From Dysgonamonadaceae bacterium (GTDB taxonomy: Bacteria; Bacteroidota; Bacteroidia; Bacteroidales; Azobacteroidaceae), in contig JAISUK010000062.1 of assembly GCA_031272075.1 (NCBI GenBank), positions 1 to 64,000 on the forward strand: a stretch of 64,000 nt of DNA, read 5' to 3'. Position 1 is the first letter of the stretch. The number at the start of each line of letters is the position of its first letter. The translations under genes were made by a program, and so were the position numbers. Below are positions 47,490-50,485 of this stretch, piece by piece. Below the pieces are notes generated by a model. That model ran no database searches. It saw nothing but the letters and a program-made list of their open reading frames with translations, and was not told the origin of the DNA.

Positions 47490-47541
47490 AGTGGTTGGTG
47501 GTTAGTTAATTCGTAATGATTTTCCGGTGAGCCAAACATCC
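47490..47541. repeat. Repeat R, copy 1 (heptamer-containing)
   Basis: A 52-base sequence repeated at 49894-49945 with three mismatches. It starts within imperfect 7-base units (GTTGGTG, GTTAGTT) and ends at CATCC. It lies between the acyltransferase gene and the toxin-antitoxin pair. Here the hairpin that follows the second copy is lost after CATCC. Confidence 0.85.
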
Positions 47542-47641: not shown

Positions 47642-47905
47642 CTAATACAACTCTGAATGTGAGCCTATTGCAACAAAAACAACAATTACGTGATTAGGCT
47701 CTTTTTCATAATAGTGCAGTCGGATATCACCACCTGCGCTAATAGAACGAAACTTGGATAATTTCGCTTTCAATTGATGATTGCGTAATTTTTCTGCAAA
47801 TGGCTCATTTGCAAACAGTTTTAATACTTCTATCACGCGAACTTGCTCGTTTCGTTGGAGTTTCTCAAATTGCTTAGTAAAGTTTCGGTGGTATTCGATT
47901 TTCAT
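47642..47905 (-). CDS. RelE/YafQ-type toxin
   Basis: An 87-residue basic protein with the RelE-superfamily fold pattern: MKIEYHRNFTKQFEKL at the N-terminus, a central KLRNHQLKAKLSKFRSI segment, GGDIRLHYYE, and the C-terminal GSHSELY typical of YafQ-like ribosome-dependent mRNA interferases. It overlaps the upstream antitoxin gene by four bases, the normal order and coupling of a type II module. The length is complete. Activity is not proven by sequence. Confidence 0.85.
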   Translation of the reverse strand: MKIEYHRNFTKQFEKLQRNEQVRVIEVLKLFANEPFAEKLRNHQLKAKLSKFRSISAGGDIRLHYYEKEPNHVIVVFVAIGSHSELY

Positions 47906-48207
47906 TTCATCAGTTTTTCCAAATAATGTAGCCCCTCCTCATTATCAGCAAAATGCAGAATATTTTTGTCTTGTTCGATATCTTTCAGTGTGGAAAGCAG
48001 GTAATCCGAAAACTCCTTGGAAACTTTCGGTGGATTATCACTGTTCTCATAGCCGATAGAAAACGGCACTGAGCGGGTTTGTTTGACTTTAAACAGGAAC
48101 ATACGAATGGCAGTGGACAAATCCAAACCAAAATCGTTCAAAATCTGCTCAGAAGTTTCTTTTACTTCTATTGGAACTTTTGCTTGCACTAAAACTGAAT
48201 TTTTCAT
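47902..48207 (-). CDS. RelB/DinJ-type antitoxin
   Basis: A 101-residue protein with the ribbon-helix-helix-like N-terminus of RelB/DinJ antitoxins (VLVQAKVPIEVKETSEQILNDFG, then LDLSTAIRMFLFKV), followed by an acidic, flexible C-terminal half that would wrap around the toxin. It is the first gene of the pair, has a good promoter (48251-48282) and would normally repress it. Confidence 0.87.
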   Translation of the reverse strand: MKNSVLVQAKVPIEVKETSEQILNDFGLDLSTAIRMFLFKVKQTRSVPFSIGYENSDNPPKVSKEFSDYLLSTLKDIEQDKNILHFADNEEGLHYLEKLMK

Positions 48208-48330: not shown

Positions 48331-49674
48331 CTATTCCATGACCACCTTTTTAGCGATTCCATTGACTTTGACAATATAAATTCCTTGAGGAAGTGTGAGG
48401 CGTGTGATACCCGACTGGATCTGTTGCTGCCTGAATTGCACCCCTGCCAAAGTGAAAACCTTGACTGTTGTATTATTAAATGGCGCGTTCACAAATAATT
48501 CGTTTCCGTACGTCCATATCGATGGATCGGCATCCGACTTGAACGTGTCGATACCGTTGTCATTGTATTCTGCAAAAATTTGTGTTTTGAAATGCAGTTT
48601 TTTAAAGCTGGCATGGTATGGGTTTACCATGGCGAGACCATATTCCGGCGTACCTTCATAAACATTATGGACTGCACGAGTATAAAAAACCTCATTGTAT
48701 TTTTCCACATACTCACTTGCCGATTTTTCTGTCTCCAATACCACAGAACGATAATGAAACAGCTTCAGGCTGTCATCGCTCAGAAACCCGTTGGTTGTGA
48801 ACAGGACAATCGCAGCGTCATAATTGTTATCGCTTGTCCGATAACTCGGTATTCTTTCGCCTCCATATAAGTTGAAGAGATCTGATTTTGACAGCGTTAC
48901 AAGCGCATCTCCCTTTACATTTTCAACCAAAGCAAAATCCTCAGCGTAATCCCCGAGATCGGTGAAAGTTACAATATCATAATCATGCCAATAATTTTTG
49001 ATTGTCACCAGATTGTCCGGCGCATCCCACAGACCGGCAAGATAGCCTTCCAATCGTCCGGCAAAACCTGATGAATACCCCTGTCTGTAGGAAAAAAGAT
49101 TGGGGCCTGTCTGTTGAAATTTACGTCGAAAATTCTCAAAAACAGTGGTATTATCTTCCACCAATCCGGTATGACTGGACGGATCTGCGAGCCAATAATT
49201 TAATTCGTTTGATGTACCCTTGTGAGTACACCATTGATGGAATATTTCATGTGTAACAATATTGGGGTTGATGTCACTGCCTACCAGTAATCTTGTGATA
49301 CGCAATAATTTATTGGAATTATATGATTCCGAATTATCAAGTGGGCCTATTCCAATATTTTGAACATGATTTTGAACATGAAATGAATGGGCGGTCGTAT
49401 AGCCTGACACATAATAAAAGCCATCATAACACAGAATCAAAAAATGTTTATCCGGAATGATGTCAAATACACGTTTGATATAATTGAGTTCTTTTGCTTC
49501 TGTCCAATCAGCGGCATCTACCGAAGGAACGTTGATATTAATGATATGTGAGGTAATCCGAAAATCCGCAGGCTGCCCCGGAAGTTGCAATATTGTCGGC
49601 ATCGGCTTGTTTAGAACTGACGGAGGGAGCGCATGCAAAAAGTTTATGTTAAAGATTGTCAGCGCAAACAGCAA
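48331..49674 (-). CDS. Secreted HExxH protein with T9SS sorting tail, translationally phase-variable
   Basis: From the TTG at 49674 the open frame encodes 447 residues; the frame is open further upstream through the CAAAA tract. It has a hydrophobic secretion core (LLFALTIFNINFLHA), a putative zinc site HEIFHQW (His142, Glu143, His146), a large polar middle, and an 80-residue tail with VKVFTLAGVQF, GITRLTLPQGIYIVKV and the final KKVVME: a type A T9SS sorting domain. So it is probably an exported, surface-attached or released metalloprotein, maybe a peptidase. There is no ATG in this frame before the tract; the only upstream ATG (49769-49767) abuts the tract in another frame and runs to a stop after 35 codons (OFF state). 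The Lys-rich residues coded by the tract and KGKLSFWSSGV would form the positive end of the signal peptide when in frame. Confidence 0.8.
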   Translation of the reverse strand: MLFALTIFNINFLHALPPSVLNKPMPTILQLPGQPADFRITSHIININVPSVDAADWTEAKELNYIKRVFDIIPDKHFLILCYDGFYYVSGYTTAHSFHVQNHVQNIGIGPLDNSESYNSNKLLRITRLLVGSDINPNIVTHEIFHQWCTHKGTSNELNYWLADPSSHTGLVEDNTTVFENFRRKFQQTGPNLFSYRQGYSSGFAGRLEGYLAGLWDAPDNLVTIKNYWHDYDIVTFTDLGDYAEDFALVENVKGDALVTLSKSDLFNLYGGERIPSYRTSDNNYDAAIVLFTTNGFLSDDSLKLFHYRSVVLETEKSASEYVEKYNEVFYTRAVHNVYEGTPEYGLAMVNPYHASFKKLHFKTQIFAEYNDNGIDTFKSDADPSIWTYGNELFVNAPFNNTTVKVFTLAGVQFRQQQIQSGITRLTLPQGIYIVKVNGIAKKVVME

Positions 49675-49705
49675 AACGCCACTCGACCAGAATGAAAGTT
49701 TACCT

Positions 49706-49766
49706 GTTTTGTTTTGTTTTGTTTTGTTTTGTTTTGTTTTGTTTTGTTTTGTTTTGTTTTGTTTTG
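49706..49766 (-). repeat. (CAAAA)12 pentanucleotide tract, phase-variation switch
   Basis: Twelve perfect units occupy 49706-49765 (GTTTT on the plus strand) plus one extra base. On the coding strand they follow directly after ATG (49769-49767). Because 5 is not a multiple of 3, each unit gained or lost by slipped-strand mispairing shifts the frame. With 12 units the ATG reads 15 non-tract codons and meets TGA near 49662-49664; with 11 or 14 units it joins the secreted-protein frame. Confidence 0.92.
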
Positions 49767-49893
49767 CATAATTAACGAGTATTAAAAAAGATGTACAACT
49801 TGTTTACAAAGTTCGGATATTTTTGGGAAATATGCAAGAAAATAGGAAAAAAAATGAGCGGCGAGACGGGGAAATAATCAGTTGTTAGTTGTT

Positions 49894-49945
49894 AGTGGTT
49901 GGTGGTTAGTTAATTCGTAATGATTTTTTGGTGAGCTAAACATCC
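49894..49945. repeat. Repeat R, copy 2
   Basis: Second copy of the 52-base repeat at 47490-47541 (three mismatches). It overlaps heptamer units and runs into the CATCCC-GTTA-GGGATG hairpin, which is absent after copy 1. Confidence 0.85.
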
Positions 49946-50372: not shown

Positions 50373-50423
50373 CTATTCCATGACCACCTTTTTAGCGATT
50401 CCATTGACTTTGACAATATAAAT
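50373..50423 (-). pseudogene. Orphan copy of the T9SS C-terminal tail
   Basis: These 51 bases are identical to 48331-48381, the last 16 codons plus stop of the secreted HExxH protein (IYIVKVNGIAKKVVME). On the coding side the copy passes straight into an octamer repeat and has no gene body. It is a remnant of a lost paralogue or a partial duplication. Confidence 0.75.
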
Positions 50424-50448
50424 ATATAAATATATAAATATATAAATA
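50417..50448. repeat. (TATAAATA)4 octamer repeat
   Basis: Four perfect 8-base units abutting and partly overlapping the orphan T9SS tail. It may mark the joint of the duplication or have grown by slippage. Confidence 0.8.
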
Positions 50449-50485
50449 GAGATAAATAGATATATCAATATTTTTTTAAATAATT

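Follow-up and report, generated by a model that had tools for sequence, protein, structure and literature searches.

A perfect run of twelve CAAAA units, placed directly after an ATG and ahead of a long open reading frame, raises the question whether changes in unit number switch the gene on and off. The tract lies in the first 64,000 nucleotides of contig JAISUK010000062.1 (assembly GCA_031272075.1, Dysgonamonadaceae bacterium), the whole of which is referred to here as the window. We take the family of this organism to include Ca. Azobacteroides pseudotrichonymphae, and the source to be probably an uncultured Bacteroidales bacterium of the termite gut. The gene is likely to be a contingency locus subject to slipped-strand mispairing; slippage, length variation and the effect on expression are inferred from a single draft assembly.

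Start codon, tract and reading frame

On the minus strand the order is CTCGTTAATT, the ATG, (CAAAA)12 and CAGGTAAACTTT (Table 1), as read from the sequence. The initial annotation, which had placed the ATG and twelve units in this way, held exactly. TRF returned the CAAAA array as the top-scoring array of the window, with 12.4 copies and 100% match. The tract contains no stop codon in any frame and encodes a QNKTK cycle in each, so that the n-region ahead of the hydrophobic core is Lys-rich at every in-frame length. Bacteroidales promoters follow the consensus TAnnTTTG. Matches with one mismatch occur at 0.77 per kb (both strands counted) and, because they are so common, the promoter-like site in Table 1 is weak and carries no weight.

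Translation from the ATG yields 472 aa at 8 units, 477 aa at 11 and 482 aa at 14, in each case beginning with MQNKTK repeats and continuing into GKLSFWSSGVLLFALTIFNINFLHALPPS; at 9, 10, 12, 13, 15 or 16 units merely 19-41 aa are obtained. A Sec signal peptide, complete by inspection, and the entire protein are encoded when the unit number equals 2 mod 3 (ON). The unit number sets whether the ATG and the intact ORF share a frame. By its frame the assembled 12-unit state is OFF; that this silences expression is inferred.

Upstream of TTG 49674 the 447-codon frame continues for 43 open codons, as far as a TAA before 49803, and it contains no ATG, GTG or TTG in that stretch; rare-start codons do occur there, for example one ATA. 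TTG 49674 lies within the hydrophobic core, and a start there leaves no charged n-region. The earlier statements that this frame lacks an ordinary start before the tract end, and that removal of one unit or addition of two brings the ATG into frame, were both borne out (ON at 11 and 14, OFF at 12). The TGA that closes the ATG frame had been put at about 49664; the counted position is about three bases away (Table 1).

Table 1. Features of the proposed switch gene in the window, and coding tracts of related Bacteroidales genomes.
Feature	Location	Strand	Remarks	State
ATG start codon	49769-49767	minus	Directly 5' of the CAAAA tract; read from the sequence
(CAAAA)12, perfect pentanucleotide tract	49707..49766	minus	62 nt when the next CA is counted, to 49705
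Possible Bacteroidales-type promoter	49807..49837	minus	TTG, 20 nt, GAACTTTG; one mismatch to TAnnTTTG
TGA closing the ATG frame at 12 units	49661-49659	minus	36 codons	OFF
Signal-peptide codons GKLSFWSSGVLLFALTIFNINFLHA, ON frame	49630..49704	minus	Cleavage site by inspection
Intact ORF downstream of the tract	48331..49706	minus	Remainder of signal peptide, HExxH protein, sorting domain; stop 48331-48333
HExxH motif HEIFH, residues 142-146 of the 447-aa ORF	49237..49251	minus	Conserved in L039
T9SS type A sorting domain TIGR04183	48355..48495	minus	Profile match
(TTTTG)5	L040 (G041)		Within signal-peptide codons; lipoprotein-like ORF, 270 aa	OFF
(GTAT)11	L133		Within signal-peptide codons; secreted protein, Ig_7 domains	OFF
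(ATACA)13.6	L291:1852-1919		In a capsular-polysaccharide glycosyltransferase (PF05704, 3.7e-64)	OFF
(TACAA)5.6	L290:2043-2070		In an acyltransferase	OFF
(TACAA)5	L289:770-2225 (G032 contig 34)		Between an alpha-L-fucosidase and a T9SS sorting domain	OFF for sorting
(AATTC)7.6	L281		Directly after ATG; 415-aa lipoprotein-like ORF in a genome of a different family	ON
(CATA)7	L135		Near the start of an FkbM-type methyltransferase	ON
(ACAT)8.5	L131		Within a GT87 protein	ON

Encoded protein and secretion route

No further stop codon or frame break occurs within the 447 codons, and the sorting domain is matched at 25.5 bits (NCBIfam cut-off 23). In the source genome SprA, the T9SS translocon and the sole component of the machinery that was searched for, is found at 2731 bits, and there are 36 sorting-domain matches; the T9SS secretion route is thus present. 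The product is predicted from its sorting domain to be a T9SS type A cargo, surface-exposed or exported, its export being inferred. This agrees with the initial annotation, in which T9SS cargo with a Lys-rich signal peptide in the ON frame was proposed; the signal peptide rests on inspection.

The main domain matches no Pfam or NCBIfam family and has no PDB relative, the PDB matches being confined to the sorting domain, and an AlphaFold model built from two sequences (pLDDT 28) was rejected as evidence of fold. An HExxH motif is insufficient alone, and without a family, a PDB relative or a usable model the identification as zinc metallopeptidase is only a guess.

Homologues, selection and rarity of the tract

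A scan of genome_contigs delivered one homologue, L039, from the MAG Prevotellaceae bacterium Nc350_bin194. It shares 47% identity over residues 1-368, retains HEIFHQW and likewise ends in a sorting-domain-like stretch; its gene start has no tract. Over 356 aligned codons pN is 0.34 and pS 0.77 (saturated), with pN/pS 0.44, which indicates purifying selection on the protein. Otherwise the homologue search in 149 relatives and 392-393 sampled genomes of the order returned sorting-domain matches only. As the gene is missing from three genomes of the same genus and from 392 sampled genomes of the order, it is regarded as accessory.

Perfect tracts of period 4, 5, 7 or 8 reached at most 15 nt in 30 order-3 Markov simulations of the window, compared to 62 nt here, and the length is far beyond chance expectation. 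A pattern search of the 3.0-Mb assembly found no other CAAAA/TTTTG tract of at least 4 units, and at least 5 CAAAA units occur in 3 of 394 related genomes, the source genome included. The source genome was studied by pattern searches and by sampled stretches totalling 346 kb, not as the whole assembled sequence.

Surroundings of the gene

Directly downstream of the switch gene and on the same strand, a RelB-type antitoxin and a YafQ-type toxin form a pair (window 47642-48207). A dispersed motif of 30 bases, ATTACGAATTAACTAACCACCAACCACTAA, is present twice on the minus strand (window 49880-49922 and near 47517); heptamer-like repeats, CCACTAA and TAACAAC, accompany it upstream of the switch gene. 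An octamer array, ATATAAAT, with 4 perfect units is located upstream of the region (window 50416-50464). Elsewhere in the source genome, intergenic heptanucleotide arrays (TTAGTGG, TAATTTC, GTTAGAA x10; L172:1757-1826 and L173:1493-1562) often stand just 5' of a start codon and are possible modulators of expression.

Coding tracts in related genomes

Related genomes, which the initial annotation did not cover, contain similar tracts, one of them before a T9SS sorting domain. The family (48 genomes) and samples from the order were searched with degenerate patterns, and the frames on both sides of each tract were compared. This revealed eight additional tracts of period 4-5 within genes of other Bacteroidales genomes (Table 1). 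The survey was limited to AT-rich units and one genome per species and is not exhaustive. All eight host genes encode secreted, lipid-anchored or glycan-modifying proteins, and five are frame-broken at the tract.

In L040 the lipobox (...VSCSNEE) is read in a frame other than that of the ATG. L133 is listed with the caveat that in-frame ATGs are present inside its tract. About 57 residues, without a family match by themselves, precede the glycosyltransferase of L291 in a different frame, and in L290 the acyltransferase profile PF01757 is matched at positions 3-208 before the tract and, in a different frame, at 220-323 after it. In L289 the fucosidase (PF01120, 1.6e-80) and the sorting domain (TIGR04183, 27.6 bits, cut-off 23) are in different frames, and this tract could possibly switch secretion rather than expression. 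The neighbours of the fucosidase gene encode flippase-like and polymerase-like membrane proteins. The layout closest to that of the window gene, ATG followed by a pentamer tract, is found in L281, but there it is ON.

Together with the window gene, three tracts are ON and six OFF, as expected from free drift of unit number among three frames. For the frame breaks at the tracts of genes in five cases among relatives it is hard to find an explanation without changes in tract length, be it in cells or in assembly.

Four ambiguous tracts (L134, L279, L282, L286) and two lying before or at a start codon (L141, L142) were left out of the count, and tracts between genes (GATA in G010 and others) were not taken as frame switches. 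Since the order-wide comparison found perfect pentamer tracts outside the family as well, mostly without clear gene context, no restriction to the family is claimed. A search with units containing two G/C positions gave mostly chance matches and one long GGTAT tract. At L282:400-489 (G017 contig 100, same family) a 102-codon open frame enters a (GGTAT)18 tract. GATA or CTAT tracts of 7 to 22 units lie outside long ORFs in G010 and G044 (L125, L126, L127, L128, L132); an action of such long tracts on promoters is possible.

Proposed mechanism and alternative explanations

In the mechanism proposed here, replication slippage in the CAAAA tract would change the unit number at a high rate, and each unit gained or lost would shift the frame, with one length in three ON. 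Cells would thereby alternate between making and not making the exported protein. When ON, the protein would take the Lys-rich n-region of its signal peptide from the tract and would cross the inner membrane via Sec and the outer membrane via the T9SS. Support is drawn from what the sequences show: the layout with its lone ordinary start codon, the rarity of the tract, the intact and conserved ORF with a homologue, the presence of the T9SS, and similar tracts in relatives. That slippage happens in cells and governs expression is inferred. Against the switch count the lack of a tract in the sole homologue, the lack of the gene in genomes of the same genus, and the fact that length variation was not observed in the single assembly.

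The alternative that survives best, although we consider it unlikely, is a tract without control, with protein made at every unit number because translation starts elsewhere or slippage restores the frame. Candidate routes are TTG 49674, a rare start such as the upstream ATA, and slippage, either ribosomal or transcriptional, in the A-rich tract. In its favor, no stop interrupts the ORF frame across the tract and as far back as 49803, runs of A are slippage sites, and ribosomal frameshifting appears in the title of a gonococcal opa paper cited in PMC3960869. However, the TTG start would fall inside the hydrophobic core without a charged n-region, the upstream stretch offers no ATG, GTG or TTG, the A runs of the tract are of four only with no long homopolymers, and similar tracts in relatives are found both in and out of frame.

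There is very little to recommend a dead gene, that is, an early pseudogene left by an out-of-frame expansion of the tract. The frame is indeed broken at 12 units and the gene is missing from same-genus genomes, but no other stop or frame break is found across the 447 codons, the sorting domain is intact, HEIFHQW is conserved, pN/pS is 0.44, and a loss by way of such a tract is reversible by design. An assembly or sequencing error hiding a fixed in-frame number such as 11 or 14, to which the draft state of the assembly (94 contigs) lends some support, is also very improbable, as the 60-nt tract lies well within a 67.6-kb contig and fits one ordinary short read, and a long perfect pentamer tract after an ATG is a switch candidate at any length.

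If the switch reading is correct, slippage acting on T9SS cargo would give Bacteroidales a second way of diversifying their surface, one without a recombinase; the bacteria in question probably live together with protists of the termite gut. A bolder reading, for and against which the evidence seems to us evenly balanced, is that termite-gut and related Bacteroidales phase-vary secreted proteins and glycan-modifying enzymes by dispersed tetra- and pentanucleotide coding repeats, with T9SS cargo affected at either end: at the signal peptide in the window gene and at the C-terminal sorting domain in the G032 fucosidase. Where a tract separates an enzyme from its T9SS sorting domain, the switch would act, unusually, on where the protein goes and not on its expression; if this holds, the enzyme stays on and the tract switches whether the T9SS delivers the fucosidase.

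Comparison with known systems

No report of a coding SSR switch for T9SS cargo was found in the open-access literature searched (most subscription papers were outside the search), and within that literature the corresponding statement of the initial annotation held. Its remark that Bacteroides is known for promoter inversions is likewise supported by two reviews, which describe phase variation in Bacteroides as DNA inversions (PMC11868660, PMC12632263), though 'Bacteroides' is too narrow a name for the source genome. The proposed switch shares with these invertible promoters and genes a random ON/OFF control of surface features in Bacteroidales; it differs from their site-specific inversion at inverted repeats by relying on replication slippage in a tandem repeat, for which no recombinase is needed. 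For B. fragilis slippage has merely been suggested, at a short C run (PMC3090145).

In Gardnerella the NanH3 sialidase is reported to be subject to slipped-strand mispairing (cited in PMC11868660, PMC11388281). There too a single enzyme, secreted or on the surface, is phase-varied by an SSR outside the classical organisms, but the organism is an actinobacterium, the enzyme a sialidase and no T9SS is involved. The tetranucleotide contingency genes of Haemophilus influenzae (PMC2651432) resemble the present case in SSR frame switching of surface-structure genes with tracts near gene starts, and differ in their tetranucleotide units, in the gene families concerned and in that phase variation is experimentally proven there.

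Among described systems opa of Neisseria comes closest; there, (CTCTT)n pentamers in the leader-peptide coding region switch at about 1e-3 per cell per generation (PMC3960869). Common to both are a pentanucleotide coding tract in the signal-peptide region, the setting of the frame by unit number and a surface or exported product. The window gene belongs to a different phylum, has CAAAA as its unit and carries the tract in the n-region directly after the ATG rather than in the leader sequence as in opa; its product is a predicted T9SS cargo and not an outer-membrane barrel, and it is a single gene rather than a family. Slippage has been measured in opa and is inferred in the window gene. Slipped-strand frame switching as in Neisseria is known; what has no counterpart in the literature searched is a slippage-type switch, proposed here with its variation inferred, for T9SS cargo in Bacteroidales.
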